The position numbers were made by a program, and so were the translations under genes. From an uncultured Flaviramulus sp. (lineage in GTDB: Bacteria; Bacteroidota; Bacteroidia; Flavobacteriales; Flavobacteriaceae), in NCBI GenBank assembly GCA_947501105.1, contig CANMUP010000005.1, forward strand, positions 62,001 to 126,000: a DNA stretch of 64,000 nucleotides, read 5' to 3'. Below the pieces are notes generated by a model, which searched no databases, was not told the DNA's origin, and saw only the letters and a program-made list of their open reading frames with translations. Shown here in pieces: positions 5,447 to 25,300 of this stretch (the first letter of the stretch is position 1; every line of letters begins with the position of its first letter).

Positions 5447-5471
5447 AATGATGCTCCTTATTTTAAGCGTG

Positions 5472-5479
5472 CAAAGGTA
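5472..5479 (-). promoter_or_regulatory. Candidate -7 promoter element of typA
   Basis: The minus strand reads TACCTTTG, an exact fit to TAnnTTTG, placed 26 bp before the typA start codon. This gives a short leader and also argues against the longer upstream start, which would lie before the transcript begins. Confidence 0.55.
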
Positions 5480-5677
5480 CTTATAAATAATGGATAAATT
5501 ATATAATAACACCTTTTTGGGTATTCCCTTTTTTGACAAATTCAAAAAAGGTCGCGCTATACATTATATCTTTCTCGTTTTTAATACATTAAAAACAATA
5601 AAGGATGCCATTTCTATCGCTAATACAGCTAAAAAACGATAATTAAATTTCCATATAAAACTTACGTTTACAAATAG

Positions 5678-8053: not shown

Positions 8054-8668
8054 ATGGAATCAAAAGATTATTTAAAAGATATTAGCGAGATTAAAGATTT
8101 AATGAATAAATCTTCTCGTTTTATTTCGCTTAGCGGATTGTCAGGAATACTCGCTGGAGTTTATGCTCTTATTGGAGCAGCAGTAGCGTATTGGTTAGTT
8201 ATGAATTATAGCCAAGGAACATTAAGGCTCGATGGCCCAATTTATCAACTAGTCATGTTAGATTTATTTCTAATAGCACTTTTGAGTGCTGTAACTGGTA
8301 TTTTTTTAACCACAAGAAAAGCAAAAAAACATGGCGCCAAAATTTGGGATGCCACCTCTAGGCGATTAGTATTTAACTTTTTGATTCCCTTAATTGCTGG
8401 TGGATTATATATATTGATTATCCTCAGCCAAGGAAAGTACGGGCAAGCTGGGGGATTAATGCTAATTTTTTATGGATTGGCCCTTGTAAATGCTTCAAAA
8501 TATAGTATCGGTGATATTTGTTACTTAGGCTATGTACAAATTATACTTGGTTTAATAGGTGCTTGGAAACCTGGTTACGGTTTTTGGCTTTGGGTTTTAG
8601 GTTTCGGAGTTATGCATATTATCTATGGCTCTTGGATGCATTTTAAGTATGACGTAAAAAATAAATAG
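8054..8668 (+). CDS. Membrane protein co-transcribed with a winged-helix regulator
   Basis: A 204-residue integral membrane protein with about five helices (roughly 25-48, 65-90, 108-128, 133-150 and 155-192). The N-terminus is a short soluble helix with SKDYLKDISEIKDLMNKSSRF. I recognise the architecture as common in Flavobacteriaceae directly ahead of a small HTH regulator but know of no function. It is the first gene of the unit starting at the palindromic operator; the regulator gene follows after 44 bp. It could act as a membrane partner of the regulator, but that is inference from gene order. Confidence 0.65.
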   Translation: MESKDYLKDISEIKDLMNKSSRFISLSGLSGILAGVYALIGAAVAYWLVMNYSQGTLRLDGPIYQLVMLDLFLIALLSAVTGIFLTTRKAKKHGAKIWDATSRRLVFNFLIPLIAGGLYILIILSQGKYGQAGGLMLIFYGLALVNASKYSIGDICYLGYVQIILGLIGAWKPGYGFWLWVLGFGVMHIIYGSWMHFKYDVKNK

Positions 8669-8712: not shown

Positions 8713-9003
8713 TTGAGCATAATAACTAACATAAATAAGGTATTCGATCACAGAATTAGATTAGGCATCATGTCTATTTTAATGGTGAATGAATATGCAG
8801 ATTTTAATATGCTAAAAGAGTTATTAGGAGCTACCGACGGCAATTTAGCAAGCCATACAAAGGCTTTAGAAAATGCTGAATACATAATGGTTGAGAAACA
8901 ATTTATTGGACGAAAACCTAACACGCGCTACTCTACTACAAAACTTGGTAGGGCTGCATTTAAAAAACATATTGAAGCACTTGAAAAATTAATTAATAAA
9001 TAA
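8713..9003 (+). CDS. Winged-helix transcriptional regulator
   Basis: A 96-residue protein that is almost entirely a winged-helix DNA-binding domain of the MarR/ArsR-like HTH_34 type: helices around NKVFDHRIRLGIMSILMVNEYADFNMLKELLGATDGNLASHTKALENAEYI and a wing with GRKPNTRYSTTKLGRAAFKKH. There is no effector domain or metal site. I use a TTG start at 8713 because the frame needs those residues for the first helix; the next ATG (8770) lies inside the domain. The probable targets are the two palindromes at 8029 and 9025, making it autoregulatory and the controller of the downstream operon. Confidence 0.85.
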   Translation: MSIITNINKVFDHRIRLGIMSILMVNEYADFNMLKELLGATDGNLASHTKALENAEYIMVEKQFIGRKPNTRYSTTKLGRAAFKKHIEALEKLINK

Positions 9004-9058: not shown

Positions 9059-10438
9059 ATGAAAAACATACCATTATTAATCGGAGCCATTTTATTTAGC
9101 ACACTGTTTTACCGACAAGGCATTGGTTTAAACTTAAGCTTATTCAGTTTATTAACAATTTGTATTCTTTTCATTTATAATAAAACAGCTTTTACTAAAA
9201 AGTCTACAATTTTATTTAGCACTGTATTTTTAATAACAGCCGGAGCAGTATTTATATATAAGTCTAACCTTTCAATAATTGCGAATGTTGCTACGTTTAT
9301 CACATTAATAGGGCATGTAACCGAGCAAAAATCATCGGTTTACATAAATTGGATAAACGGTTTATACTCATCAATAGCAGGTTATTTTCATCGTAACTTT
9401 AATGATATTGAAAAAGATAAAAAGGTTGTACTCAAACGAAAAATAGATTATCTGCATTTAATAAAAATAATAGGTATTCCATTAGTTACACTTGTCATTT
9501 TTATAAGTTTATATAAAAACGGAAACCCTCTATTTAGTGATTTAATATCTAAAATAGATTTTAGTTTTATTAATATGCAATGGTTGTTGGTTACAACTCT
9601 TGGTTACTATTTACTAAATAATATTTCAAAACCTGTAAGAGTAGATCCCGCAACTACTCACGATTTAAACACGCTAAATTCTTTAGAAAAACGTGGTGAA
9701 ATTGAAATCGAGCAACTTAAAAAGGAAAACCAATTAGGTTTTATTTTAATAGCGCTACTTAATGTACTTATTCTTCTCTTTTTAATTACAGATATTACCT
9801 ATTTAGTTTCTACTACCGATTTAAGAGCTTCTGTTTTTTCAAATCAGGTACATAATGGAATTAACACCTTAATTGCGTCAATAATTATTGCAATAATAAT
9901 TATACTCTACTTTTTTAGAGGAAACTTAAACTTTTATAAGAATAACAAAAACCTCAAAACCGTTGCTTACATATGGATAATACTTAATATAATATTGGTA
10001 ATTAATATTGCTATTAAAGACTATCAATATATATATTATTTCGGCTTTACATATAAACGCATAGGTGTTTTAGTTTATTTATTACTTACAATAATAGGCT
10101 TATTTACTACTACTATTAAAGTAAAACAAATAAAAAACTTTTGGTATTTGTTTAGAGTAAATACACTTACAGCCTTTACAATTCTAATCATTACAAGCAC
10201 TATTAATTGGGATAATTACATAACATATTACAATCTTAATCATGCCAAGTCAATGGACTTTGATTATCTAATAAATCTATCTGACAACAACACCTTTCTT
10301 TTAAAAGATTATATAGATAAAAATAATTTAAATGTTGAAAAAGAGCTCGCTGTTGAAAGAAAGCACAAAGAATATTTACTTGAACTGGAAAACAACAAAT
10401 GGCAAGAAATACAATATGATAATTTTAAAATAAAATAA
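9059..10438 (+). CDS. DUF4173-like polytopic membrane protein
   Basis: A 459-residue protein with about 11-12 hydrophobic helices; the C-terminal 80 residues are soluble. It fits the DUF4173 family, often found after small winged-helix regulators in Bacteroidota. A short conserved block EKRGEIEIEQLKKENQLGFILIALLNVLILLFLITD is typical of the family as I know it. Function unknown. It is the first gene of a tightly spaced plus-strand series reaching the MSEP-CTERM gene, and its promoter carries palindrome copy 2, so the series is probably under the 8713 regulator. Confidence 0.7.
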   Translation: MKNIPLLIGAILFSTLFYRQGIGLNLSLFSLLTICILFIYNKTAFTKKSTILFSTVFLITAGAVFIYKSNLSIIANVATFITLIGHVTEQKSSVYINWINGLYSSIAGYFHRNFNDIEKDKKVVLKRKIDYLHLIKIIGIPLVTLVIFISLYKNGNPLFSDLISKIDFSFINMQWLLVTTLGYYLLNNISKPVRVDPATTHDLNTLNSLEKRGEIEIEQLKKENQLGFILIALLNVLILLFLITDITYLVSTTDLRASVFSNQVHNGINTLIASIIIAIIIILYFFRGNLNFYKNNKNLKTVAYIWIILNIILVINIAIKDYQYIYYFGFTYKRIGVLVYLLLTIIGLFTTTIKVKQIKNFWYLFRVNTLTAFTILIITSTINWDNYITYYNLNHAKSMDFDYLINLSDNNTFLLKDYIDKNNLNVEKELAVERKHKEYLLELENNKWQEIQYDNFKIK

Positions 10439-10439
10439 G

Positions 10440-10814
10440 ATGAATGTGCCTTCTGTCATTTTAAAATCAACACTATTATCTGCATCCATATTTTGGATAA
10501 TTGTAATGTCTGAAGATTTCAATTTAGATATGATTCCTTTTATATTCTTTTCGTTCATTCCAATTTCACTTTGCTGTTTAATAACTATTCTATTTACGAT
10601 AACACCTTTCTTTTGGTTAAAAAAAATGAATATGAGTAATAATGAAGTCTACAAAAAGTGGTTTCCATACTATGCTATAATATGTTTTAGCTTATGCTTT
10701 TATGGAGTTATAAAATCAAACTTTAATATTTACCCAATTAGTTTTCTTGCTTCTGCTTTTTTTACAACAATGCAGTCATGGATATGGTTTGCTAAAGCTA
10801 ATAATGCACAATAA
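10440..10814 (+). CDS. Small membrane protein of unknown function
   Basis: A 124-residue protein with about four hydrophobic segments and no motif I recognise. The start codon follows the preceding stop by one base, so the two are translationally linked. The gene lies in the operon that ends with exosortase K and its target. It could be an accessory of that system or simply a passenger. Confidence 0.65.
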   Translation: MNVPSVILKSTLLSASIFWIIVMSEDFNLDMIPFIFFSFIPISLCCLITILFTITPFFWLKKMNMSNNEVYKKWFPYYAIICFSLCFYGVIKSNFNIYPISFLASAFFTTMQSWIWFAKANNAQ

Positions 10815-10820
10815 TTCAAT

Positions 10821-11450
10821 ATGAAATATTTTAAAAAAATAACATTGATAATTGCTTTCATGATAATATACGCAATTACTATTAGCTATTGGATGACGTT
10901 TCAAGCTAAAGATTGTATTTATGATAACGTATTAGATGTGCCAAAAAATAAAGTCGGTCTAGTTTTAGGAGCAAGCAAGCTCACACCTAACGGAACTATA
11001 AATCTTTATTACAAATATAGGTTAGAGGCAGTGTATCAACTTTATAAATCTGGAAAAATTCAATTCATTTTAATAAGTGGGGACAATAGTAGGAAAGAGT
11101 ATGATGAGCCATCTGATTTTAAAAATGATTTAATAATAAAAGGTATTCCTAGAGAAAAAATATTTTTGGATTATGCAGGATTTAGGACTCTTGATTCTAT
11201 AGTTAGAGCTAAAGAGGTCTTTGGCTTAAATTCGGTAACCATAATATCTCAAAAATTTCATAACGAACGTGCCATATATCTTTCAAATCATTTTGACGTA
11301 AATGCAATTGCTTTTAATGCTCAAGATATTCGAGGGCACTATGGTGCAAAAACACGTTTAAGAGAATACTTAGCAAGAACAAAAGCATCAATCGATATTC
11401 TTTTTAATGTTGAACCAAAATTTTTAGGCAAGAAAATAAAAATCAAATGA
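10821..11450 (+). CDS. SanA/ElyC-like DUF218 envelope protein
   Basis: A 209-residue protein with one N-terminal membrane anchor (residues 8-28) and a DUF218 domain facing the periplasm. Family signatures are VGLVLGASKLTPNGTINLYYKYRLEAVYQLYKSGKI, the SGD turn in ILISGDNSRKEYDEP, GIPREKIFLDYAGFRTLDSIVRAK and ISQKFHNERAIYL. E. coli SanA and ElyC affect the envelope permeability barrier and lipid-carrier metabolism; the biochemical reaction is not established. It overlaps the next gene by 4 bp. Its presence in the exosortase operon supports an envelope-related theme. Confidence 0.85.
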   Translation: MKYFKKITLIIAFMIIYAITISYWMTFQAKDCIYDNVLDVPKNKVGLVLGASKLTPNGTINLYYKYRLEAVYQLYKSGKIQFILISGDNSRKEYDEPSDFKNDLIIKGIPREKIFLDYAGFRTLDSIVRAKEVFGLNSVTIISQKFHNERAIYLSNHFDVNAIAFNAQDIRGHYGAKTRLREYLARTKASIDILFNVEPKFLGKKIKIK

Positions 11451-11824
11451 ATCTTCAACTCAACAAGACATATTTAATAATATCCGTACTTCTTTTTATA
11501 GCAGAAGTACTTATTGCTACCTTTTTTAAGTATGGCTTTATTCGTTATACTTTTGGAGATTATCTGGTAGTTATACTACTCTACTGCTTCTTCAAAAGCT
11601 TTATAGAAATAAGCTCATTTAAACTAGCTATTTCAGTTTTAGTATTAGCATTTACAATTGAGTTTCTACAATTAATTAATGTTCTAGAAACACTAGGTTT
11701 TCAAGACAATTATTTGGCTAAACTAATATTGGGTAGCACATTCCATCTCTCAGATTTAGTGGCTTATACTCTTGGAATTATCACTGTTTTAATAGTTGAA
11801 TATAAATTACAAACCCATGGATAA
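11447..11824 (+). CDS. DUF2809-type membrane protein
   Basis: A 125-residue membrane protein with four helices. The pattern TFGDYLVVILLYCFFKSF, then FAFTIEFLQL and the terminal DLVAYTLGIITVLIVEY, agrees with the DUF2809 family. No function is known. It overlaps both neighbours by a few bases (4 bp upstream, 8 bp downstream), a clear operon arrangement. Confidence 0.75.
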   Translation: MNLQLNKTYLIISVLLFIAEVLIATFFKYGFIRYTFGDYLVVILLYCFFKSFIEISSFKLAISVLVLAFTIEFLQLINVLETLGFQDNYLAKLILGSTFHLSDLVAYTLGIITVLIVEYKLQTHG

Positions 11825-12476
11825 CATAAAACAGCTTTTTATAAATAGGTTTAAAACCTTTACACTATTAAGTATTTCAATAACTTTTTGTATTGTACTA
11901 CTTATGATTAGAATGAAACTTACACATTCCTTTTTCTACTTGTTTTTAGTTTGGAATTTGTTTTTAGCAGTCATTCCCTTTGTCATAACCACTTATTTAG
12001 TAAGTCTCCCCAAGCTTAATAAATTTGTATTAGCTTTTTGGTTTGGGGGATGGTTGCTTTTTTTACCAAATGCTCCATACATCGTTACAGATTTAATTCA
12101 TATTAGGCTAAGCAATACACGATTTGTTTGGCTAGATGTTATTGTTGTTACTTCTTTTGCTTTAAATGGACTTATACTATTTTACTTATCTTTTTTAGAC
12201 ATGATGAGTCTTTTAAATCATCATATAAAGAAACAGTACGCTTCCTTTTTCATCCCAATTCTATTGTTTCTAACAGCTTTTGGAGTTTATCTTGGTAGGT
12301 TTTTACGTTACAATTCATGGGAAATTATTCAAAATCCATTAGAATTATTTAATGATATTTTTCGAATTATCATTTACCCATCAAACCATATAGATGCATG
12401 GTTATTCACTATTCTATTTGGTGCCTTTTTACATATTGGTTTTTGGATTTATAACAACTTAAGAAACATTAATTAA
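11817..12476 (+). CDS. DUF1361 membrane protein
   Basis: A 219-residue polytopic protein of the DUF1361 family. Family landmarks are the loop FLPNAPYIVTDLIHI after the third helix and YLGRFLRYNSWEIIQNP after the fifth. I choose the start at 11817 (MDNIKQLF), an ATG that overlaps the preceding stop by 8 bp, instead of an ATG seven codons earlier that lies well inside the previous gene. Function unknown; DUF1361 members in Bacteroidota and Firmicutes are otherwise uncharacterised membrane proteins. The exosortase gene begins two bases after the stop. Confidence 0.82.
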   Translation: MDNIKQLFINRFKTFTLLSISITFCIVLLMIRMKLTHSFFYLFLVWNLFLAVIPFVITTYLVSLPKLNKFVLAFWFGGWLLFLPNAPYIVTDLIHIRLSNTRFVWLDVIVVTSFALNGLILFYLSFLDMMSLLNHHIKKQYASFFIPILLFLTAFGVYLGRFLRYNSWEIIQNPLELFNDIFRIIIYPSNHIDAWLFTILFGAFLHIGFWIYNNLRNIN

Positions 12477-12477
12477 A

Positions 12478-13002
12478 ATGAAACTGCCAAAGCATTCAAC
12501 ATATTATATTATAGGAATAACATTATTCGTTGGCTTAAAACTTATGTATTCCAATGCTAACAATAATCAGGTTTTTATCTTATTGAAGCCATTAGACAAG
12601 ATTGTTGGTTTTATTCTCGATTCCCATTCGGTTTACAATAATGACGTTGGCTTTTTTCATGAAAAACTAAATATTACTATAGATAAATCTTGCTCTGGTT
12701 TTAATTTTTTAATGCTCTCTTTTATACTATTATATTTTTCACTTTTAAAAAGTTTAAAGTCTCACTTTTTGAAAATTTCAGCAATTCTGGTAGCTTTATT
12801 TTTTGCTTATAGTTTTACACTATTTGTAAATGCATCACGTGTTTTAACAGCAATCTTTGTTGAAAAAAATACGAATTTAAATTATGCTTGGTTACACGAA
12901 GCCGAAGGTGTTTTTATTTATCTGTCCTTTCTTATCACTCTATATATTTTCATCAACTACGTTCAAAATAAAATCATAAATACTCATGAAAAATTTGCTT
13001 AA
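12478..13002 (+). CDS. xrtK: Exosortase K
   Basis: A short 174-residue exosortase, an integral membrane cysteine transpeptidase-like enzyme that recognises a C-terminal PEP-CTERM-like signal on one or a few exported proteins. The three catalytic positions of the family are visible: Cys72 in DKSCSGFNF, Arg121 in VNASRVLTA and His140 in WLHEAEG. The length and the adjacent MSEP-CTERM gene point to type K, not the long EpsH-like exosortases. It overlaps the target gene by 17 bp. In vivo processing by XrtK has not, to my knowledge, been shown; the role follows from family and gene pairing. Confidence 0.88.
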   Translation: MKLPKHSTYYIIGITLFVGLKLMYSNANNNQVFILLKPLDKIVGFILDSHSVYNNDVGFFHEKLNITIDKSCSGFNFLMLSFILLYFSLLKSLKSHFLKISAILVALFFAYSFTLFVNASRVLTAIFVEKNTNLNYAWLHEAEGVFIYLSFLITLYIFINYVQNKIINTHEKFA

Positions 13003-15784
13003 CCCAAAATGGTTGCTTGTTATAAACACGATTCCAGTAATTCTTTTGTTTTTTATTTATTATAACGAATTTGATGTTATAAAAACACTTTTGGAGGAAG
13101 ATAGTATACAACTATGGTTCAATTTTGGAGGCATTCTTTTTGGATTATCAATACTTCTTTTAGGGTATGTTCTGTTTAGTATTCAACAGAAAAAAGAAAT
13201 TTCTATTTTCTATGCATTTTCAACTTTAGTAGTATATACTATTTATCTATACTTCTATAGTATGTATAGCTCAGATATCATTCCTCGGAGTATTCCTAGA
13301 TGGATGCTTTCACAAAATTCAATTTTATACCCTGGTACATTTTTAATGCCAACATTGGCTCATGCTTTATTTGTTATAGTAATTAAATTAACCTCAAAAG
13401 CAAAAGATTTAAAAGCTTGGAAAAGCTTTTTACTAGCACTTTCAATTCCTTTACTTACTTATATTTTTGTTCAAGCCATTTTACCTCTTTGGCAACCTAC
13501 AAGTTATAGATATAATAATCATGTTTTAATTATTGGTTTAGTAGTAGGCGTTATTCTATTTCTATTCTTTTTAATTCGTAGTATTTATATTTTATCAATA
13601 AAAAAAGAAAAAAACTGGTCACAATTTTATTTAGCAGCAAAGTTTTTGGTAGGCGTCGTTTTTCCATTACTCGGTCTACTAATAAATAATCAATTTAACG
13701 GTGCTTTTGGAGATTTCAATACACCATGGTTTTATATTATTGCTCTAGCAAATGGCCTTCTAATTTGTGTGTCCTCATCTGAAAACAAACAGCATAGGCT
13801 TTTTCTATTTATTGCCAGATGCATAACATATTCTTTTACCTTCTATTTCTTCATTGTATTTCTTCCTTTTTTGCCTCTATCTGTTATTGCTATTATTGCC
13901 ATAGGTTTAGGTTTTTTAATGTTGACTCCTTTGGTGTTATTTATTATTCATACACAAGAATTATCGAGAGATTATAAGTTTCTAAAAAACATCTATTCTA
14001 AACAGTTTTTAATTATAACTGGAATCGTTGGGTTTCTTGTAATACCTACAATATTAGCTTTATCTTATCAAAGAGATAAAATTGTACTACATGAAACTCT
14101 AGATTACTTGTATAATCCTGATTACTCCAAGGATTATAATATAAATAAAGCATTTCTTAAAAAAACTTTAGAGGTTGTTAAACATAATAAGTCACGTAAT
14201 TCTGATTTTTTTATGAATTCCCAAACGCCTTATTTATCAAGTTTTTTTAATTGGATTGTTTTAGATAATTTGACTTTATCTGACACAAAAATTAAAACCA
14301 TTGAAAAGATATTTTTCGACACAAAACCATTTGATTTAAGGGCTGAAAGGCTGAGAAATAAAAACGTAGACATATCAAACATAAGTTCGAATAGTACTTA
14401 TAGTGAAGCTGATAACACATGGACAAGTTGGATAAATTTAGAAATTACAAACGCTAATAAAGACAATTTCACTTCTGAATATGCAACAACCATAGATTTA
14501 CCCAACGGATGCTGGATAAATGATTATTACCTTTATGTTGGTGACAGAAAAGAAATGGGGATTTTAACGGAAAAGAAATCGGCTATGTGGATTTTTTCTC
14601 AAATAAGAAACATCAATCAAGACCCGGGGTTGTTGCATTATTTAACTGGAAACAAAGTTTCTTTTAGAGTTTTTCCTTTTTCTGAAAATGAAGTAAGAAG
14701 AACAGGAATTCAATTTATACATAAAGAACCTGTTACGATTAAAATTGACAATCATAAACTTACATTAGGAGAAGAAAAAAAGACTCTAATCAATCATAAA
14801 AAAAATGACCAAGTCGTTTACATTTCTTCAAAAGAAAAAGAGACACTTAAAAAGATAAAGCGGACACCTTATTATCATTTTATTATCGATACTTCAGAAG
14901 AAAAAGATTCGTTAATAAATAACTATGCAAAAGCTCTAAATGATTTTATAATTGCTAATAATTTAGACATCAATAAAGCTAAAATAAGCTTTGCAAATAC
15001 CTATGCTATAACCAAAGATTTTAATGATGAATGGGTAAACAGTTTAAAAGGGCAAGATTTTGAGGGTGGATTTTATTTAGAACGCGCCATTAAAAAAGCA
15101 CTTTTTAATTCTTATACTAATATTTCTAACCACTACCCTATTATTATTGTAATTACAGATAACATGCTAGATGCTGTTATTAATAAAAACTTTGCAGATT
15201 TTAAAATAGCTTTCCCAGAAAGCAATCATTTTTATCATCTTAACACATTAGGCTATTTAGCTTCTCATAGCTTAGTATCAAATCCTAAAGAGTTTGTAAA
15301 TGATAATACCATGATAGATTTTGATAATGAGGTCTTAGTGTGGCCAAACCCAATTAATCCAATAGCTTATTTACCTAATGATAGTTTATCAAATATTGTT
15401 TTGAAAGATTCAGTTTTTAATTTTAGAGAAAACGCTATTAATCAATCAAACTGGAACGCAGGGTTACAGTTGCAAGGAAAATGGCTATCAGACATATTCT
15501 ATCCAGAACATGCGCAAAGAGATTGGAATAATGCTGTGAAAATGAGTTTTAAATCTAAAATAATGACACCGCTTACTTCTTATATTGTTGTTGAAAATGA
15601 AGCTCAAAAAGCTGTTTTACTTAGAAAACAAAAAGAAGTATTGGCTGGAAAAAAATCTTTAGACCTAAATGAAAGAACACAAAGCATGTCTGAACCAAAA
15701 TTAATACTATTATTAATTTTAGTTGGAGTGCTTTTATTTTTAAAGCGAAGGCAAATTATAAATCACTCTAAACCATCAACATAA
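12986..15784 (+). CDS. MSEP-CTERM sorted membrane protein with VIT-like and VWA-like regions
   Basis: A 932-residue protein. The N-terminal 370 residues form about 11 membrane helices. The periplasmic part has a VIT-like region (about 475-590, with TSWINLEITNANKDNFTSEYA, LPNGCWIND and FPFSENEVRRTGIQF) and then a degenerate VWA-like fold (about 610-780, from YYHFIIDTSEEKDSL). The C-terminus is a textbook sorting signal: MSEP at residues 901-904, a hydrophobic helix, then KRR near 925. This is the presumed sole client of the exosortase encoded immediately upstream. The VIT/VWA layout recalls inter-alpha-trypsin-inhibitor-like adhesins or chaperone-like surface proteins. The last 22 bp overlap the convergent dehydrogenase gene. 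Confidence 0.88.
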   Translation: MKNLLNPKWLLVINTIPVILLFFIYYNEFDVIKTLLEEDSIQLWFNFGGILFGLSILLLGYVLFSIQQKKEISIFYAFSTLVVYTIYLYFYSMYSSDIIPRSIPRWMLSQNSILYPGTFLMPTLAHALFVIVIKLTSKAKDLKAWKSFLLALSIPLLTYIFVQAILPLWQPTSYRYNNHVLIIGLVVGVILFLFFLIRSIYILSIKKEKNWSQFYLAAKFLVGVVFPLLGLLINNQFNGAFGDFNTPWFYIIALANGLLICVSSSENKQHRLFLFIARCITYSFTFYFFIVFLPFLPLSVIAIIAIGLGFLMLTPLVLFIIHTQELSRDYKFLKNIYSKQFLIITGIVGFLVIPTILALSYQRDKIVLHETLDYLYNPDYSKDYNINKAFLKKTLEVVKHNKSRNSDFFMNSQTPYLSSFFNWIVLDNLTLSDTKIKTIEKIFFDTKPFDLRAERLRNKNVDISNISSNSTYSEADNTWTSWINLEITNANKDNFTSEYATTIDLPNGCWINDYYLYVGDRKEMGILTEKKSAMWIFSQIRNINQDPGLLHYLTGNKVSFRVFPFSENEVRRTGIQFIHKEPVTIKIDNHKLTLGEEKKTLINHKKNDQVVYISSKEKETLKKIKRTPYYHFIIDTSEEKDSLINNYAKALNDFIIANNLDINKAKISFANTYAITKDFNDEWVNSLKGQDFEGGFYLERAIKKALFNSYTNISNHYPIIIVITDNMLDAVINKNFADFKIAFPESNHFYHLNTLGYLASHSLVSNPKEFVNDNTMIDFDNEVLVWPNPINPIAYLPNDSLSNIVLKDSVFNFRENAINQSNWNAGLQLQGKWLSDIFYPEHAQRDWNNAVKMSFKSKIMTPLTSYIVVENEAQKAVLLRKQKEVLAGKKSLDLNERTQSMSEPKLILLLILVGVLLFLKRRQIINHSKPST

Positions 15785-16968
15785 TCTTGCAAATAAGCAA
15801 AGCGATCAGTAAGTTTTCCATTTTCTGTCATTTTAGCACGCTCTAAAACACCATCGGCATCGTTATTAAAAAACGCAGGAATAACATGTTCTAAAAACAT
15901 ATCGCCAAAACCTTCGCTGGCATCTTTTGGGAGTTCGCATGGTAAGTTATCGACTGCCATAACTGTTATTGCGTTTTTTGCATCAAAATCAACTTCACTT
16001 TCTGTTTGTGGATTATAACCATAAAACGGGTCTGCAATAGTTGAAGCTCGTAATGTTGATGCTACAGGTCCGTCAACATCGCAAGAAATATCGGCTACTA
16101 AATTGATATTAAAATCTGGGTGTTTAGCATCTTCTCGCGTAAATAAATATGGTGCATTATTACCATAAAAATGACCGGCTATAAAGAAATCGGTTTCTTT
16201 AGCGTAGGGCATAAAGTTACTTTCGTAACCTGTTGGATCTTTATAAAACTCCCACTTATCACCTACTTTACCATCTTTACGCTTACTGTATTCCATTACA
16301 TCAACCAAGCAATAAACAGGTTCTGTAAATTTTGATGTTAAATACAAAGCGTCACTTACTTGCTTTATTTTTAAATGGTCTAGAATTTCTTTTGCTCCAT
16401 GAGCAACTTTTCCTGTACCTGACAATAAAATTTTAATATTTGGTAAAGTAATTTTATCTAACTCACGCTTAACAGCATCTAAATCGGCTAGGGTTTCTAC
16501 TTTAGGCAAACTGAATAAATTGTCTTTTAAACCCAATGCTCTAAAGCCGTTATAAGCGCCTACCAATCCTGCGTAGCGCCCAAAACCTATTAGCCTGAAG
16601 CCTTTTTCGTTTACTATAGTTTCGTGGTCGTACAACTCAATATTTTTATCAAGAATGGCTTGAAGTAATTTACGGTTATAGGGTTGTTTCTTTATGGTAT
16701 GTGAAAAGAAAAAATATTTTTTATTTGGAATTAAGTTTTCAATAGGTACTTCTTTTACACCAATCATAACATCGCAATCCCTTACATCATTTGTAACTTC
16801 TAACCTATTGCTTTTGTATTGCTCATCTGGAAAAATACGAATATCAGACGTTTCAACTTTAAATTCTCCTTGAGAGAATTTCTCCTTAGTTTCAGCAAAT
16901 TTTTCAGGAGAAAATACAACACGCCTGTCTGGTGGGTTTTTACGTTCTTTTATAATGGCAAACTTCAT
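15763..16968 (-). CDS. Saccharopine-dehydrogenase-like NAD(P)-dependent oxidoreductase
   Basis: A 401-residue soluble protein of the alanine dehydrogenase/transhydrogenase and lysine-forming saccharopine dehydrogenase superfamily. The N-terminal catalytic part starts KFAIIKERKNPPDRRVVFSP; a Rossmann nucleotide-binding motif GTGKVAHG follows at about residue 184, and SCDVDGPVASTLRAST lies in the C-terminal lobe. The true reaction could be saccharopine cleavage or another 2-oxo acid reductive amination; lysine biosynthesis neighbours are not present, so the pathway is open. Its 3' end overlaps the MSEP-CTERM gene tail-to-tail by 22 bp. Confidence 0.82.
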   Translation of the reverse strand: MKFAIIKERKNPPDRRVVFSPEKFAETKEKFSQGEFKVETSDIRIFPDEQYKSNRLEVTNDVRDCDVMIGVKEVPIENLIPNKKYFFFSHTIKKQPYNRKLLQAILDKNIELYDHETIVNEKGFRLIGFGRYAGLVGAYNGFRALGLKDNLFSLPKVETLADLDAVKRELDKITLPNIKILLSGTGKVAHGAKEILDHLKIKQVSDALYLTSKFTEPVYCLVDVMEYSKRKDGKVGDKWEFYKDPTGYESNFMPYAKETDFFIAGHFYGNNAPYLFTREDAKHPDFNINLVADISCDVDGPVASTLRASTIADPFYGYNPQTESEVDFDAKNAITVMAVDNLPCELPKDASEGFGDMFLEHVIPAFFNNDADGVLERAKMTENGKLTDRFAYLQDYVDGLE

Positions 16969-17226: not shown

Positions 17227-17618
17227 GGGGTCGACTGGTTTTGACAGCGAGATTAATTAAACGGTAAGCACGTCGTGTAATGGCATTGAAACACGTTAAA
17301 GGCTAGACCAAATTTTAAACGGCGAGAATAACTACGCTTTAGCTGCATAATCTGAATTATAGTAAGATTAGCCTTGTCCTACTAGGTAGGAAAGCTTTAT
17401 GTCTCTGGAAAGCCTTGGTTAACGGCGTTCCATTTTGAGGCATCGTAAATGTTAACATAGATTGGGTAGTGCTTTGTTGCCCTTTTGAAACTAAAAAAGA
17501 TAAGTTATAAGTGGGTTGTCTTTAACCAGCTTATAATCGAAAAACCAAGAAAAGAATAAGCGTGTAGAAAACTCTTTGATTACTTGTTTGGACGAGAGTT
17601 CGATTCTCTCCGACTCCA
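17227..17618 (+). ncRNA. ssrA: tmRNA
   Basis: Rescues stalled ribosomes and tags the nascent chain for degradation. The 5' end GGGGTCGACTGGTTTTGACAGCG and the 3' end with GTTCGATTCTCTCCGACTCCA are diagnostic; the first seven bases pair with CGACTCC at the 3' end to form the acceptor stem. The tag reading frame is at 17321-17350 and encodes GENNYALAA followed by TAA, giving A-GENNYALAA on the target, similar to other Bacteroidota tags. CCA is not fully encoded (CACA follows), so it would be added after transcription. An intrinsic terminator follows at once. Confidence 0.95.
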
Positions 17619-17620
17619 CA

Positions 17621-17659: not shown

Positions 17660-17915
17660 TTTTTAAAAAGCGCTAATTAAAATAAAATCTAAGATGATTT
17701 ATTGAAAGTTGCAGTTAAAAATTTTAGTAAATTATTATTTAGTATTATCTCATTTTTTAGATTGGTTATATCAGAGTAAATTAATAATATTCCGTATTAT
17801 TGTATAACTAGTATGAACAATATTCAATATAACATTGATTTTAATTCTCCTGACCGCATAAGTTTTTAATTACATAAAATTGAGCCATTTTATAATTAAA
17901 AAACAAGCTAATACT

Positions 17916-20900
17916 ATGGCTAACAATCTAGACTTGAGAAGTAAGCTTTTTTTCATAGGAATTATTCTTATGGCTATTATTAGTTGCGATAAAAAAAGTG
18001 AACATTCTATATCAAATAACCTTCCAGAAAATATTAAGTTAGATTCTTTACAAGAAATTAGTAACAATCTAAAAGAGATTCTTGATACATCAAATATTTT
18101 AAACGTTAAATATTCTACAGAACAACTAGATAACACCAAAGGCCTTTCAAACAGTTCTGTAAATACTATTTTTCAAGACTCTGAAAATTTATTATGGATT
18201 GGCACCTGGGATGGATTAAATAGATATGATGGTAGTAGCTTCAAGATTTTCCGCCCTGAATTAAATAATGAAAACAGTCTTTCCAATCAAGTTATCCTAA
18301 AAATTGATGAAGATTACTTGGGTTATATATGGGTGTTGACCATGCACGGTCTAAACAGATATGATAAAAAATCAAATACATTTAAAAGATATTATTTTAC
18401 AAGAAAGGATAAACCTCCTTTTTCTGAATTCGAATTTAATATGGCGATTGACGGTTCTAAAAAAGTCTATTGCGCGGTTAAAGATTGGGGGATTGGATAC
18501 TTTGATGGTCATAGTTTTCAATTTTTAAATACTAAAAACCTTCCAACCAATGCCATTAAAAAGATGGTATTCGCGCCGACAGGAGAATTACTTTTGTTAT
18601 TAGATAATAATGAACTCTACTCCCTAAAAATAAGTACGACGGAGGCAGGCGCAAAAAAAGTGTCTAAAATTGAAAAAGTTTTAAATGATGTTAGGGATTT
18701 TGGGGTATTATCTAAAGATAAAATATGTTTTATTTCTTCTTCTGGCAGTACGGGATTCTATTCTTTTAAAAACAGAATTGTACGACAAACTAATAAAGGT
18801 AAGTTCCAAAGTATTATATCCAATACTAAAGAAGGTCTTTTGCTATATGATAATTTAAGGTATTTTATCATTGATAGTCTGGAAAGAGTTAATGAGAATT
18901 CATGGGTTAAGAACTTAAAAAAACAAAAAGTAACAACCTTACTTCAAGGTACTGAAAATATAATTTGGACAGGAACAGATGGTGACGGAGTTTTTAAGAT
19001 GCACCCACTTAAAAAGGTGTTTAATCTCGTGTCTAAAACACAAGTGCCCGAAATGGATGGGGGCATTGTAAGGGTGTTTTTAGAGGTGGAAGGACATTCT
19101 TTTTGGGTAGGAACAAAAGGAAAAGGGTTGTTCCGATTCCCTTCTAAATTTCACTTAAACTCAAACGAGACATTACGTTATCAAAATTTCAATGAAAGCA
19201 ATAGCCCTATTAACAATGCCGTGTTTTCACTTTGTAAAGGAGCGGACGATCTTGTTTTTATTGGTACAGATGGGCAAGGAATTAATGTTTTTGATTTAAA
19301 ACAATCAAAGTTTATTAGTTGGCCAGAAATTGTTGGAAATGAATCCTGTGAATATTTTAAATCAACATATGCAATTTACCAAGATGAAAATGGATTTATT
19401 TGGCTTGGGACCAATGGTTATGGAATGATTCGATTTAAGATTTCTAGGTCAGGAAAGTCTTTAAAAGTAACTGAATTTGAACAATATTTGGCTGTAAGTG
19501 GAGTTGAGGGATCTTTAAGTAGCAATATTATTTTTTCAATAGTACCAAAAAACGATAAGGAGCTTTGGCTAGGAACTAGATTGGGCGGATTGAACCTTTT
19601 CAATAAGGAAACAGATGCATTTAAAGCATTCAAAAACAAAAAAAACGATTCTCAAAGTTTATCAAATAATGATATTTTGTGTCTTCATTTAGATTCAAAA
19701 AATAGACTTTGGATAGGTACAAGTTTCGGCTTGAATGTGTTGGAAGAATTTAATCAAGGTAATGTGCCAAAGTTTAAAAATTTCACTGTAAAAGAAGGTC
19801 TTCCAAATAATACCATTCATGGCATAATTTCCGATGAAGAATCAAACCTTTGGGTAAGTACAAATTTTGGCTTATCTAATTTTTTGTTCAATGAATCAAA
19901 ATTTATTAACTACACTAAAAGTGAAGGTTTGCAAAACAACGAATTTGCAGATGGTGCTTTTTATCAAAACGATAATTCTGATTTTATTTTTATGGGAGGA
20001 ATCAAAGGGTTTAATTACTTTTTGCCTTATAAAAAAGAAGAATCTCAGATTGTGCCAGATATTCTTATCGATAGAATTAGTGGTCAAAATCAAGACGTGC
20101 CCTATTATCAGGGGCTCGTTATATCTCCAAATTCAAAAATATTTCCGTCTATAGTTTTAGAACATAATCAAAACTTTTTTGATATTGAGTTGGCTGCTCT
20201 AACCTATATAAATAGTGAGAAATGCCAATATGCCTATAAATTGAATAATTTTGATCAAGACTGGAATATCATCAATAATAGAAGAATCATTTCCTTTACC
20301 AATGTACCAAAAGGGGCTTATTCATTGTTGATTAAATGGTCTAATGCCGATGGTGTTTGGAGTGATTCTGTGCATGCTATTGATATTAAAATTAAGCCTG
20401 TTTTTTGGCAATCAACAGTGGCTATTGCAATTTATCTTATCTTAATTCTTCTTTTTCTTCTTTTTGTATGGAGCTATTTTAATAAGCAGTATAAATTAAG
20501 GCAAAATATTATTTTTCAAAAACGAGAGGAAGAAATCCATCAAAACAGACTTACGTTTTTTACAAACATTGCACATGAATTTCAAACGCCTTTAACCTTG
20601 ATTGTCGGACCTATTCAAAAACTTGCTGAATCTGAAAGCCTAGGTGAAAGAAGTAAGAAATTTATAAACATGATACAGCGAAATTCTTCAAGATTATTTT
20701 TCTTAACACAACAGTTGCTTGAATTTAGAAAAGCTGAATATGATTATTTGGAAGTCACAGTTAAACAATTTGATCTGCTTGATTTGATTGAACAAATAGG
20801 AGAGTTGTTTGATGAATGGGCTTTAGATAAAAATATTGATTATTATATAGAGTTACCGTCTGAATTGGTTGGATGGTTTGATAAAGACAAAATTGAAAAA

Positions 20901-22145
20901 ATTATTTTTAACCTGTTGTCTAATGCGTTTAAATATACTCCTAAAAGTGGAACCATCAAACTACAGTTTAGTATACAGGACGATGCTGAAACAACACTTC
21001 ACATTAATGTATCCAATTCTGGTAAGGGCATTCCTAAAGAAAAATTGGAATCTTTATTTGATAGATTTTTCTTAACAGAAGATACCGAGGCATCAGATAC
21101 AGGTTTGTTTAGAACAGGTATTGGTTTGGCGTATGTTAAAAAGCTGGTAACGGTATTAAAAGGTGATATTAACGTTGTTAGTAAAGAAAATAAAGAAACC
21201 ATTTTCACAATTAAACTTCCTTGTAATAAAGAGTCGTTTAAAGAAAATGAATTAGATAGTGAAGCAAGTCAAATTTTGATTTCTGATTATCTTAAAAATA
21301 TTCTTGAAGAAACTCCAAATAAATCTGATGATACTTTTAATAAAATGTCATCACTAGAAGCATTTTTAGAGCAACGTAAAGTGGTGTTAATCATTGAGGA
21401 CGAAAAAGAAATTCAACTGTTTTTAAATGAATTGTTAAAAGAAAAATATAAAATCGTCATTGCTAATAACGGAATTGAAGCCTTAAAAATGATGAAAAAT
21501 GAGCTTCCTGATATTATTATTACCGATGTTATGATGACAGCCATGGATGGTATAGAGTTTTGCGAAAAAGTTAAAAACGACAATAAAACATGCCATATTC
21601 CTGTAATAATGCTTACCGCAAAAAGTTCAGTACAGCACCGCATTGAAGGGTTGGAAAGTGGTGCTAACTCATACATCCCAAAACCATTCCATCCAGACCA
21701 TATTCTTGTTAGGGTGCAAAAACTTCTTGAAGAAAAGGAACTTATATTAAAACATCTATCTCAAGATACCTTTACAGAGAATATTAAAAACCTTCCTGTA
21801 AATAAGGACGATAAAGAATTGCTAAGAAACGTTATTAAACTAATACGCAGTAATATAGATAATGAAAACTTACAAAGTCTATTTATAGAGGAACAGTTAG
21901 GGATTAGTAATTCACAACTATATAGAAAGATTAAGCAAAACTTTGGTTTTTCACCTGGAGACTTAATACGAACTATAAGGCTAAAGTATGCAGCTGAATT
22001 ATTAAGAAAAAGTAATTGTACAGTCTCTGAGGTTTGTTATCAATCCGGTTTTAATAACCGATCTTACTTTTATAGGGAGTTTAAAAAAATGTATAACAGT
22101 ACTCCTAAAAATTATCAACTCCAAAATAATCCTAGAATATCTTAA
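17916..22145 (+). CDS. Hybrid two-component system regulator (HTCS) of the GH130 locus
   Basis: A one-protein sensor, kinase and transcription factor of 1409 residues, the usual HTCS length. Order: N-terminal signal or anchor; periplasmic two-bladed-propeller region of Reg_prop repeats (about 60-720, many LWIGTxxGLN motifs); Y_Y_Y domain (to about 825); membrane helix (about 835-857); HisKA with His887 in IAHEFQTPL; HATPase; receiver with phosphoacceptor Asp1204 in ITDVMMTAMDG; AraC-type HTH at the C-terminus. It senses a breakdown oligosaccharide and activates the adjacent PUL. I start at the ATG (MANNLDL) and not the TTG 12 codons upstream. The N-terminus ends MAIISC, a lipobox-like site, unusual for this family. 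Confidence 0.95.
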   Translation: MANNLDLRSKLFFIGIILMAIISCDKKSEHSISNNLPENIKLDSLQEISNNLKEILDTSNILNVKYSTEQLDNTKGLSNSSVNTIFQDSENLLWIGTWDGLNRYDGSSFKIFRPELNNENSLSNQVILKIDEDYLGYIWVLTMHGLNRYDKKSNTFKRYYFTRKDKPPFSEFEFNMAIDGSKKVYCAVKDWGIGYFDGHSFQFLNTKNLPTNAIKKMVFAPTGELLLLLDNNELYSLKISTTEAGAKKVSKIEKVLNDVRDFGVLSKDKICFISSSGSTGFYSFKNRIVRQTNKGKFQSIISNTKEGLLLYDNLRYFIIDSLERVNENSWVKNLKKQKVTTLLQGTENIIWTGTDGDGVFKMHPLKKVFNLVSKTQVPEMDGGIVRVFLEVEGHSFWVGTKGKGLFRFPSKFHLNSNETLRYQNFNESNSPINNAVFSLCKGADDLVFIGTDGQGINVFDLKQSKFISWPEIVGNESCEYFKSTYAIYQDENGFIWLGTNGYGMIRFKISRSGKSLKVTEFEQYLAVSGVEGSLSSNIIFSIVPKNDKELWLGTRLGGLNLFNKETDAFKAFKNKKNDSQSLSNNDILCLHLDSKNRLWIGTSFGLNVLEEFNQGNVPKFKNFTVKEGLPNNTIHGIISDEESNLWVSTNFGLSNFLFNESKFINYTKSEGLQNNEFADGAFYQNDNSDFIFMGGIKGFNYFLPYKKEESQIVPDILIDRISGQNQDVPYYQGLVISPNSKIFPSIVLEHNQNFFDIELAALTYINSEKCQYAYKLNNFDQDWNIINNRRIISFTNVPKGAYSLLIKWSNADGVWSDSVHAIDIKIKPVFWQSTVAIAIYLILILLFLLFVWSYFNKQYKLRQNIIFQKREEEIHQNRLTFFTNIAHEFQTPLTLIVGPIQKLAESESLGERSKKFINMIQRNSSRLFFLTQQLLEFRKAEYDYLEVTVKQFDLLDLIEQIGELFDEWALDKNIDYYIELPSELVGWFDKDKIEKIIFNLLSNAFKYTPKSGTIKLQFSIQDDAETTLHINVSNSGKGIPKEKLESLFDRFFLTEDTEASDTGLFRTGIGLAYVKKLVTVLKGDINVVSKENKETIFTIKLPCNKESFKENELDSEASQILISDYLKNILEETPNKSDDTFNKMSSLEAFLEQRKVVLIIEDEKEIQLFLNELLKEKYKIVIANNGIEALKMMKNELPDIIITDVMMTAMDGIEFCEKVKNDNKTCHIPVIMLTAKSSVQHRIEGLESGANSYIPKPFHPDHILVRVQKLLEEKELILKHLSQDTFTENIKNLPVNKDDKELLRNVIKLIRSNIDNENLQSLFIEEQLGISNSQLYRKIKQNFGFSPGDLIRTIRLKYAAELLRKSNCTVSEVCYQSGFNNRSYFYREFKKMYNSTPKNYQLQNNPRIS

Positions 22146-22174
22146 GTCAATTGTCTTTAAAAGAGGTGATTACA

Positions 22175-22215
22175 AATAGTGTACACTATTGATGAAATAG
22201 TGTACACTATTTCAT
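22175..22215. promoter_or_regulatory. Twin palindromes upstream of the susC/susD operon
   Basis: AATAGTGTACACTATT occurs twice, at 22175-22190 and 22196-22211; the second extends to a 24-bp perfect palindrome (22192-22215). Their centres are 21 bp apart, two helical turns, and they lie about 13-50 bp ahead of a -7-like TACCTTTA at 22228. This is the natural place for the HTCS AraC domain or another regulator of the locus to bind. The palindromes also lie just after the HTCS stop. Confidence 0.7.
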
Positions 22216-22227
22216 GTGCCCTACATT

Positions 22228-22235
22228 TACCTTTA
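22228..22235 (+). promoter_or_regulatory. Candidate -7 element of the GH130-locus susC operon
   Basis: TACCTTTA, one base from TAnnTTTG, downstream of the twin palindromes and about 118 bp ahead of the susC start. A weak -7 box would fit an activator-dependent promoter. Confidence 0.4.
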
Positions 22236-22305
22236 TGGAGTGATTTTTAAATCATAATCATATAACAAGCTAAACATTAACTAATCTATTTAATTATTTA
22301 GAATT

Positions 22306-22356
22306 ATGAAAAAAACTACTCAAATTATGAATCAATTAAAAACATTCTCATCATGA
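22306..22356 (+). CDS. 16-codon leader frame overlapping the susC start
   Basis: ATG at 22306 opens a short frame for MKKTTQIMNQLKTFSS. Its TGA stop overlaps the susC ATG in an ATGA junction, the typical arrangement for translational coupling. The peptide itself resembles the first residues of SusC-like signal sequences, so it may instead be the remnant of an older susC start. Whether it is translated is unknown. Confidence 0.35.
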   Translation: MKKTTQIMNQLKTFSS

Positions 22357-25300
22357 AAAAAAATATTATTTATAACATATTCTTGATATGGGCAATATTA
22401 TTAGGAGGTACGTTATTTGCTCAAACCGTTACGGGTACTGTTTCAGATAACAATGGTGCTATTCCAGGCGTAAATATTATTGTGAAGAACACATCTAAAG
22501 GAGCTGTAACCGATTTTGATGGGAACTACACCATTAATAATGTAGATCAAAACGCTGTTTTGGTTTTTAGTTTTTTAGGGTACACAACAAAGGAAGTTTC
22601 TATTAATGGAAAGACTGTAATTGATGTTGTATTGATAGAAGATTCACAGGCATTAGATGAAATTGTTCTTGTTGGATATTCATCAAGAAAAAAATCGACA
22701 TTAACTGGAGCATTAACCGTTGTTGATGTAGAGGGACTAAATAAAGCTAGAACTTCAAATGTAGCACAATCTTTGCAAGGACAAGTTGCAGGTGTGCAGG
22801 TTGCTTCAAGCAGTGGTGCTCCTGGAGGAAATATTGAAGTCACTATTCGTGGAGTGGGAACTATAGGAAATAATACGCCGCTTTATATTGTTGATGGAGT
22901 GCCTTCTCGTGATATTTCTTTTTTAAACCAATCAGATATTCAAACGATGACAGTTTTAAAAGATGCCGCAGCAGCTTCAATTTATGGAGCAAGAGCATCT
23001 GCAGGAGTTGTTTTAATTACAACCAAGAGCGGTAAAAAAGGAAAAATGACTCTTGAGGCTAACTACTTTTACGGAATTCAAAGCGCAACTAATCTTCCTA
23101 CTATGTTAAATGCTGCTCAGTATATAGATGTAACTGAAAAAGCTTGGAACAATACTTTTACCGGAACAAATCCTTATACAGCAGATAGAGGAAGATCAGA
23201 TTTTGGAGACACCAATTGGCTTGATGAATTATTTGAATCGGGTTCATCACAAAATTTACAATTATCAGCCAGTGGTGGTAGCGATAAAGTGCAATTTTTA
23301 ATGTCTTTAGGATATTATGGTGAAAATGGTATTGTAGTTTATAACAATGATAAATATCAAAGATTGAACTTCAGAACCAATATCAATGCTCAATTAACAG
23401 ATAAATTTAAAGTTGGTACAAACCTCCAATTATCATATTCAATCCAAGATAAAGTTCCCTCAACAGGTGAAAGTTTAATTAGATTTGCTTTATTAAGAGC
23501 TCCAGTAATTCCTTTATTTAAGAGTGTAAATGATCCTACATATTCAGTTGAAGATCCTTTTACTGATATGCCCTTTTTTACGCCTACTGGTTACGACCAA
23601 GGATTGAACAGAACCATGTATGAAATGGTAGGAAACCCTATCGCCCAAGCATATTTTTCTGACGATAGAACGACAAGGTTTCAAACATTTGGTAATATTT
23701 ATGGGGAGTATAAAATAATGAAAGACCTTACTTTTAGAAGTAATGTGGGTATAGATTTATCATTTTATCACGATAAAACTTTTAATGTAAATTATGGTGA
23801 TGATGATGGAGGCGGAAGTGCAATTGATCAAGGATTGGGCAGACGTAATAGACCAAACAATTTGGGTGAATTAAGAGGAGAAGCCTTTACGTTTACCTTT
23901 AGTAATACATTAAATTATCTAAAAACATTTAATGATAGACATGATTTTAGTGCTATGCTTGGTACAGAATTAGTTTCAAATTACGAATCTTTTATAGGTG
24001 CAAGTAGAGCACGGTTTCCTTATACCGTTGATGAATTTAGATATTTAGATCAAGGAGGCTCAGGTCTTGATGTTAACAATTCTGGTACTGCATCAGAATA
24101 TGGGTTGTTTTCAGTGTTTGGATCAACATCGTACGTATTGGATAATAAATATATGATAACCGCGAATCTAAGAGCAGATGCTTCTTCAAGATTTTCTGAG
24201 AATAATCGTTGGGGATATTTTCCATCTGTTTCAGCAGGTTGGAAATTGTCAGATGAAGATTTTTTAAGTGATGCTGATTGGTTATCTAATTTAAAATTAA
24301 GAGCGAGTTGGGGTCAAGTAGGAAATCAAAACATTGATGATTATTCTTATTTGGAGTTGCTTAGAGCAGGAGATATTCCTGGAAGAGACCGTTTTGGTAA
24401 TCCCGATTTAAAATGGGAGACTTCTACTCAAAAAAACATAGGTATCGATGTTGGTTTGTTAAACAACAAATTGGTGTTTAATGCCGAGTATTATATAAAA
24501 AACACAACTGATATCTTATTGCCTATAGGATTGCCTGGCATATTTGGAGATTTGCAACCAACTATTGTAAATGCTGGAGAGGTTAGTAATAAAGGATTCG
24601 AATTTTCTGCTAATTATAGGAATTCAGACCATGAATTTAAATATAGTATAAATGCAAATTTTTCAACATTAGTAAATAACGTTGAAAAATTACATCCAAA
24701 TGTACCTAGTATAGTTACTGATAAATATAGAACGGTTGTTGGGCAATCTTTAAATTCATATTATGGTTATAAAATGATCGGGATTTACCAAAACCAAGCT
24801 GAAGTAGATGCACATTTAACAGCTGGTAATGCACAGCCAGGTGATATCAAATTTAAAGATGTTAATGGAGATGGTAGAATAAGCCCTGATTTTGATAGAG
24901 AATTTATTGGATCTTCAATACCAGATTTAACCTATGGTTTTGCCTTTAACGCCGAGTACAAGAAATTTGATTTTTCATTGTTTGTGCAAGGTGTAGGTGG
25001 TATTGAAAAATATAACGATGGAAAGAAAATTGTAGATTTTGATACACGACCATTTAACTATACTACAGCTATTTTGGGGTCTTGGGATGGTGAAGGTAGC
25101 ACCAATAGTATGCCAAGGGTTGCATTTAATGATAACGGAAGTAGTAATGTATCTAGTCTGTTTGTAGAAGATGCCTCATATTTTCGTCTTAAAAACATTG
25201 AAATTGGATACACATTAGATGGTATTAATGGGTTTCAAGATATGCGTTTATATATATCTGGTAAAAATTTATTCACATCAACTGATTATACTGGTTTAGA

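Follow-up and report, generated by a model that had tools for sequence, protein, structure and literature searches.

The exosortase K / MSEP-CTERM sorting system is represented by two NCBIfam families, TIGR04287 for the enzyme (XrtK) and TIGR04286 for its client, and the pairing of the two is already known from these families. Our search of the literature for exosortase K, MSEP-CTERM, XrtK and XrtN found no paper on the pair, and none of the papers found reports its carriage in a cassette, its transfer or its linkage to an envelope cassette. Here, we analysed one such pair in a stretch of 64,000 nucleotides (nt) of an uncultured Flaviramulus sp. of the Flavobacteriaceae (contig CANMUP010000005.1, positions 62,001 to 126,000), hereafter the window, in which xrtK (12478-13002) is followed by its client gene, MSEP (12986-15784), both on the forward strand. 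We consider it probable that these two genes constitute a portable unit of one enzyme and one client, that the product would be an anchored protein with a modified C-terminus, and that the unit resides here in an envelope cassette which is not dedicated to it.

As proteins, the members of the window pair do not differ from the known system. XrtK, of 174 residues (aa), scores 130.2 bits with TIGR04287 (E 5e-38, cut-off 55), and the 932-aa client 928.9 bits with TIGR04286 (E 3e-279, cut-off 150), covering profile positions 1-916 of 920. With scores so far over the cut-offs, the initial annotation was right to read them as exosortase K and its MSEP-CTERM client. It was equally right in detail: Cys72 and Arg121 are the only cysteine and arginine of the enzyme and His140 is one of six histidines, the two genes overlap by 17 nt (12986-13002), and the client ends with a sorting tail (residues 901-926, 15686-15763) composed of MSEP at 901-904, a hydrophobic helix and KRR. 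A search of the window genome with the XrtK model gave this single match.

The pair shares features with several described systems. XrtK also matches, above cut-off, TIGR04178 (E 8.4e-9) and PF09721, and the order motif, helix, basic residues in the tail is that of the PEP-CTERM/EpsH system. The difference lies in the single client adjoining its enzyme and in the motif, MSEP or MTEP. Residues 177-575 of the client, that is part of the helices and the VIT region, match the VIT protein of the XrtN system (TIGR04477, E 1.9e-21). With 76 bits for a cut-off of 250 the client is not a member of that family and would rather be a sister client. In Flavobacterium johnsoniae, xrtF is likewise a Bacteroidota exosortase gene with a neighbouring system gene, but of a different exosortase family. 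Deletion mutants were reported to affect colonisation and biofilm (PMC10936215), and the words XrtK and MSEP are absent from the main text of that article.

XrtK is rare. A match over cut-off occurs in 4 of 296 genomes sampled from the phylum of the window, and MSEP passes its cut-off in 9 of 397 genomes of the family, the window's own genome being included in both counts. A scan of species genomes yielded 79 loci with relatives of the client (80 with the window), distributed in Bacteroidota and in other phyla, the latter represented by metagenome-assembled genomes (MAGs) except for Balneola. In 73 of these 80 loci, as in the window, xrtK lies directly upstream of the client gene. Among the seven others five start at a contig edge, leaving L113 and L118 as true exceptions. 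When starts are taken from the longest open reading frames (ORFs), 42 of the 73 loci measured have an overlap of exactly 17 nt. The Cys, Arg and His residues corresponding to C72, R121 and H140 are invariant in all 72 aligned XrtK sequences, the window's included and that of L117, located inside a long open frame, left out. Clients in a 71-row alignment (A2) are 24-89% identical to that of the window, and the tail motif is well conserved (P904 in 71 rows, E903 in 70, M901 in 69, S902 in 63). Nine of the 80 loci are missing from this alignment and from the tree, eight for short or split clients (L074, L077, L092, L104, L106, L109, L111, L118) and L110 by omission. In L077 and L104, the client ORF is split in two, by a frameshift or an assembly error.

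The exceptions are informative about the relation between tail and enzyme. L113 contains a client homologue (9785-12793, E 2.7e-120) and no xrtK. Its tail has the form VPEP, helix and basic residues, matching PEP-CTERM models weakly, below their cut-offs, and the genome encodes three exosortases of the EpsH family. L117, from Spirochaetota, combines a DEP tail with an XrtK-like enzyme scoring under the XrtK cut-off. In L118 (9929-12178, Synergistaceae), the genome shows no exosortase match, the first helices of the client are absent and the tail is found in another frame. This client looks decayed, and we rejected its interpretation as a clean loss of both tail and enzyme, the tail being still present. 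These cases are few, but the joint variation of tail and enzyme fits an enzyme-substrate relation.

DNA identities of the pair were compared with those of typA, the window gene at 3647-5545 labelled by eye, in seven genomes (Marivirga was left out since no TypA orthologue was found). The pairs of Aequorivita (L051) and Flavobacterium NRK F7 (L056) are 92% identical, for 77% in typA, and those of Flavobacterium and Balneola, which belong to different phyla, 83% for 58%. In blastn comparisons of 14 loci, shared stretches longer than 200 nt are confined to the pair and its edges, for instance 3540 nt between L051 and L056. No relatives of the L056 client were found on PLSDB plasmids to E 1e-10, nor relatives of the client alignment in viral contigs. 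These sequence comparisons indicate that xrtK-MSEP behaves as a mobile two-gene unit, moved horizontally between distant bacteria.

The edges of the unit suggest by which route it could travel in some genomes. In L051, L054, L056 and L060, the pair is preceded by GTTACCACACAT and followed by ACGTGTGGTAAC, and L080 displays the same edges with small changes. In L056 the pair is located among small ORFs of the same strand, separated by hairpins of 122-158 nt. A hairpin scan using no family model detected such sites in L056 (eight), L054 (three) and L051 (two), and two shuffles of each locus gave none. For the 80 loci together it gave 54 sites compared to 8.5 in shuffles, together with two scattered matches in the 64-kb window. 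Thirteen attC-like sites, some of them near-copies, could be aligned over 18 base pairs, 17 of which show changes on both sides, and served to build a model (R1). R1 places a site directly after MSEP in L051, L054, L056, L060 and L080, with a weak match in L055 (E 0.07); the first four contributed to R1, so that they match by construction, while L080 did not. In L051, L054 and L056, a site also ends at the start of the pair, and the folded site at its 3' end is found there by the model-free hairpin scan as well. R1 did not confirm the hairpin matches after MSEP in L053 and L084, and, with E-values up to 1 admitted, matches nothing in the window.

Cassettes of this kind carry a further signature. 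Six cassettes of L056 were compared: the start of each is complementary to 5-7 of 8 positions in its own 3' site, and to 0-5 positions in other sites. In the 66 of 80 loci usable for this comparison, the two ends of the pair match with a score of at least 6 in five, compared to 0.8% of mismatched pairs (some of them homologues). A transposon with fixed terminal repeats was considered and rejected, because each array cassette has an end sequence that matches its own start. From the L056 hairpin coordinates, the pair cassette measures about 3.5 kb; according to Ghaly 2021, a length of 4 kb is twice that of the largest annotated cassette (PMC8352920). From these sequence features we regard the integron-like cassette form of the pair as sure for a few genomes only. 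Separately, attC-like sites were seen some 8-10 kb from a resident, operon-bound pair in L043 (near 20823) and L044 (20722-22335).

The window genome itself possesses such an array. On the same contig, about 283 kb past the window end (G000:C5:404000-463999, L246-L248), 37 attC-like sites lie on one strand, and the gene of a XerA-like tyrosine recombinase of 380 aa (L246, 5164-6306) stops about 465 nt before the first of them. Leaving out one of the 36 intervals, longer than 2.5 kb, 35 cassettes remain. Of these, 30 agree with their own 3' site in 6 or 7 of 7 positions, and the total over the array was attained by 0 of 10000 shuffles. We inspected eight of the recombinases listed, five chosen for nearby R1 sites and three, from G746, G703 and G704, without that knowledge. 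R1 matches are located downstream of seven, those of G746 and G704 included; the G703 gene is near a contig end and has none. In L250, attC-like sites occur on both sides of the recombinase gene. R1 matches were obtained in 13 of 16 genomes searched, Balneola having two. The other three are MAGs named Pseudomonadales, Elusimicrobia and Treponema, which represent the search outside Bacteroidota and Balneolota. At E 1e-6 or better, these E-values being rough, R1 matches occur in 78 of 148 genomes sampled from the phylum of the window. This contrasts with the single complete integron, that of Salinibacter ruber, named for Bacteroidetes proper in the covered portion of the IntegronFinder 2.0 paper (PMC9024848), a portion which holds no count of integrase-less arrays for this group. 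Bacteroidota do figure among the integron-bearing phyla in the parts covered of The Natural History of Integrons (PMC8618304) and of the archaeal-integron paper (PMC9668308).

These arrays resemble integrons by their folding sites, their small same-strand ORFs, cassette starts complementary to their own 3' site and a recombinase beside the array. They differ by the enzyme. The four recombinases scanned against NCBIfam score above cut-off with NF040815 (site-specific tyrosine recombinase/integron integrase), and match the integron-integrase model only in pieces, below cut-off and without the segment near positions 180-238. Likewise, among the matches listed for G695, G698 and G700, no integrase with the IntI-specific segment passes the cut-off, and the best ones break near position 180 to resume near 237-242. 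A true IntI over cut-off is present, among the matches listed, in 1 of 35 genomes, G736 (L095), where R1 finds no sites. We use the term integron-like only, because the IntI-specific segment, a defining feature, was not found in these recombinases. No description of such a Bacteroidota type was found in the literature searched, a scope that excludes most subscription papers. On balance we lean slightly towards the proposal that a widespread Bacteroidota integron-like system, whose XerA-like recombinase is devoid of the IntI segment, mobilises, as one of many cassettes, a complete two-gene sorting system that settles repeatedly in an operon characterised by CreD or DUF4153.

In the window, this operon precedes the pair on the forward strand. 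It begins with a 204-aa protein (8054-8668; 19 of 80 loci, no family above cut-off) and an HTH_34 winged-helix regulator (8713-9003; PF13601, 2.7e-30), followed by a DUF4153 protein (9059-10438; PF13687, 2.9e-39), a 124-aa protein with no family assigned (10440-10814; 5 of 80 loci), a SanA-like DUF218 protein (10821-11450; PF02698, 5.7e-17; NF008092, 1.1e-56 with 191.8 bits, below the cut-off of 363) and two membrane proteins, DUF2809 (11447-11824; PF10990, 6.7e-23) and DUF1361 (11814-12476; PF07099, 2.1e-38). The initial annotation had named the SanA/DUF218, DUF2809 and DUF1361 genes correctly and mistaken the DUF4153 gene for DUF4173. Downstream, an AlaDh/PNT-like gene on the opposite strand (15763-16968) overlaps the 3' end of MSEP by 22 nt. 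In other loci, CreD occupies the place of DUF4153 (CreD in 13 of 80 loci, DUF4153 in 8), and the two occur together in none of the 80 loci nor in twelve further regions.

Are these genes accessory parts of the sorting system? The initial annotation had suggested that they may be, in a model where XrtK processing releases or relocates the VIT/VWA-like domain of the client with the assistance of DUF4153, SanA-like, DUF2809 and DUF1361 proteins. From the DUF4153 gene on, the genes do form a single run, in which neighbours overlap or lie no more than 6 nt apart, and the six of ten pair-bearing genomes of the family that possess DUF1361 all have it near the pair, the gene being present in 23 of 70 genomes of the family without an MSEP match over cut-off. 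For the 204-aa gene the corresponding counts are 8 of 10 and 41 of 70 (80 genomes compared, those 'without' being defined by MSEP and not by a search for xrtK). However, twelve regions were fetched for holding both DUF1361 and the 204-aa gene, and eleven, from genomes without the pair, show the cassette with neither xrtK nor MSEP, the twelfth (L195, G289) having the pair. In addition, 33 of the 79 genomes with a client homologue (the window's and 78 others) have no good match to the 204-aa gene, and in relatives such as L042, a close one, CreD replaces DUF4153, SanA and the 124-aa gene together. Even the genus of the window offers an empty site: in G300 it is DUF1361 that overlaps the AlaDh/PNT-like gene by 22 nt at the 3' ends, a clean presence/absence of the pair. 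In G673, of the same genus, about 665 nt separate these two genes. Since the cassette exists in genomes without the pair and an empty site in the window's own genus, the upstream genes are, as far as gene order tells, an independent envelope cassette and not one dedicated to xrtK.

Independence does not mean the absence of linkage. Good matches to both the pair and the 204-aa gene were obtained in 46 genomes (the window's and 45 of the 78 distinct genomes, the weak matches G704 and G678 being left out), 19 of which have them within 10 kb of each other, so that the linkage anticipated by the initial annotation does exist, whereas the dedication of these genes to xrtK is contradicted. CreD or DUF4153 lies near the pair in 21 of 80 loci, with CreD directly upstream in L097 and L098. 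Other clusters recur within 10 kb, such as a 363-aa ORF in L080, L087 and five Kordia loci, and genes adjoining the cassette in Flavobacteriaceae. Outside the envelope cassette, we rejected the idea of a constant set of neighbours: when the genes nearest to unlinked copies are counted, CreD alone stands out, with 2 of 81, and generic domains are as frequent. As for defence genes beside unlinked copies, among the best 25 of 156 families none was found in more than 2 of the 81 neighbours. A 189-aa ORF cluster was also seen within 10 kb of the pair in L066, L069, L071, L073 and L099, from several families.

In a quick tree of the 71 clients, 8 label changes are required to explain the 18 linked rows, and at least five of these changes fall on strongly supported branches; shuffled labels need 16.1 on average, and 0 of 500 shuffles are as low as 8. 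Thus, the tree suggests that linkage to the CreD/DUF4153 cassette arose or was lost at least five times, without telling the direction. This bears on a different explanation, in which the pair belonged ancestrally to the envelope operon of the Flavobacteriaceae, was lost many times and was transferred in a few lineages only. The copies of the window, Gaetbulibacter, Jejuia and Psychroserpens indeed form one supported clade at the same site, and a tree that cannot distinguish gains from losses of linkage accommodates such a history. We nevertheless find it unlikely, given that in some lineages the identities of the pair are strongly at odds with those of typA and that the position of the pair inside the cassette differs between lineages.

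The anatomy of the client is relevant to what the enzyme could achieve. An AlphaFold2 model built with nine sequences, of low confidence (predicted local distance difference test, pLDDT, 61.7), places 11-12 helices at the N-terminus. A beta-rich region starts near residue 460, and a mixed region then leads to the tail helix. The borders of 11 helices were placed from the model and hydropathy and loop charges averaged over the 71 sequences: inside loops hold 1.0-2.7 Lys plus Arg, outside inter-helix loops 0-1.0, which fits an N-in orientation. With N-in and 11 helices, the region of about 530 residues and the MSEP motif would probably be periplasmic, with the KRR end on the inner side, which is the orientation required of an exosortase substrate. 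The VIT-like part (about residues 460-600, 14363-14785) matches PF08487 weakly (2.2e-4; 21.8 bits, under the cut-off of 26.5), and the VWA-like part is suggested by the low-confidence model and an incomplete metal ion-dependent adhesion site (MIDAS), with D635 in 70 of 71 rows, S637 in 61 and the following positions not conserved. The initial annotation had recognised the polytopic N-terminus, and its VIT-like and VWA-like regions are to be taken with these reservations.

The client model was also compared with known structures by VIA-align. Most of the 50 best rows span client residues 453-599, and only two of them, 6fpz and 6fpy (inter-alpha-inhibitor heavy chain 1), extend over residues 457-890, with Z 7.7 and 7.6, root-mean-square deviations of 5.6 and 6.0 and 198 and 217 residues aligned, respectively. 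A VIT-VWA fold is likely for the client, rather than secure, because a Z under 8 may merely reflect a common arrangement. The sequence match to an inter-alpha-trypsin inhibitor (ITI) heavy chain (H4) has E 0.066. No solved structure was related by sequence to XrtK up to E 1, and none convincingly to the client. The C-terminus of ITI heavy chains is the site at which they are cut and attached to a glycan; to our knowledge they are without N-terminal membrane helices.

This topology speaks against the release of a large domain proposed by the initial annotation. Because the N-terminus of the client is predicted to be embedded in the membrane by about 11 helices with an N-in charge bias, cutting the tail would not by itself free the VIT/VWA-like part, unless a second cut took place. 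Taken with the independence of the cassette, this leaves release aided by accessory genes as quite improbable.

We propose instead that the client is co-translated with XrtK, a cysteine transpeptidase-type enzyme of the inner membrane, probably through the 17-nt overlap. By analogy with the exosortase family, the enzyme would cut at the periplasmic MSEP, remove the tail helix and join or free the new C-terminus, while the N-terminal helices would keep the client in the inner membrane. The product would be a VIT/VWA-like domain anchored in the inner membrane, its C-terminus modified and most likely attached to an acceptor among the envelope molecules. The pair would spread by horizontal transfer, taking the form of an integron-like cassette in some genomes, and the window copy would have become resident in a CreD/DUF4153-type cassette with which it shares surroundings and perhaps expression conditions. 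Alternatively, the pair could act as a regulated inner-membrane sensor, whose VIT/VWA-like part binds an envelope ligand and whose trimming by XrtK switches signalling or stability of the 11-helix domain, the cassette being the output. Invariant residues are indeed numerous in the N-terminal helices of the client, and the linkage to envelope-integrity genes in several lineages would suit such a role: CreD maintains envelope integrity in Stenotrophomonas maltophilia, where its loss damages it, according to the portion of PMC4689548 covered here. But no signalling domain was recognised in the client by NCBIfam and Pfam scans, and many copies of the pair are located away from the cassette, so that we hold this sensor to be improbable.

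Several observations weigh against the portable unit with an anchored product that we favour. Cleavage and acceptor are deduced from the exosortase family. In 27 of the 46 genomes with both, the pair and the 204-aa gene are not within 10 kb of each other (some contigs are short), each label change on the tree could stand for a lost or a gained linkage, and, according to a warning of the tree program, the long branches of Kordia and of L113/L117 may have been placed wrongly. A clear attC-like site after MSEP exists in only five of 80 loci, with a weak one in a further locus, and the window copy has none. Certain typA comparisons go in the opposite direction, as for Gaetbulibacter and Flavobacterium (pair 61%, typA 81%). 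Finally, the 37 residues following the last N-terminal helix, assigned outside, hold 5.3 Lys plus Arg and 5.6 Asp plus Glu, and the fold is not secure with so poor a model and ITI heavy-chain matches of Z below 8.

Beyond the pair, the window includes a transfer-messenger RNA at 17227-17619 (tag GENNYALAA), and at 17880-25382 a 1421-aa ORF and, after it, a 1009-aa ORF, which read by eye, from their translations, as a hybrid two-component sensor/regulator and a SusC-like protein, respectively.

That xrtK-MSEP travels as a unit, in some genomes as an integron-like cassette, helps to account for its patchy distribution and suggests that the two proteins need no further partner. Given that the pair is linked to CreD or DUF4153 in several lineages, a phenotype, and with it a physiological role, could be searched for under envelope stress. 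With respect to the usual idea of exosortases, that of surface export, the predicted topology of the client raises a different question: it will be interesting to know what the cell may gain from an altered C-terminus on a protein that would be retained in the inner membrane.

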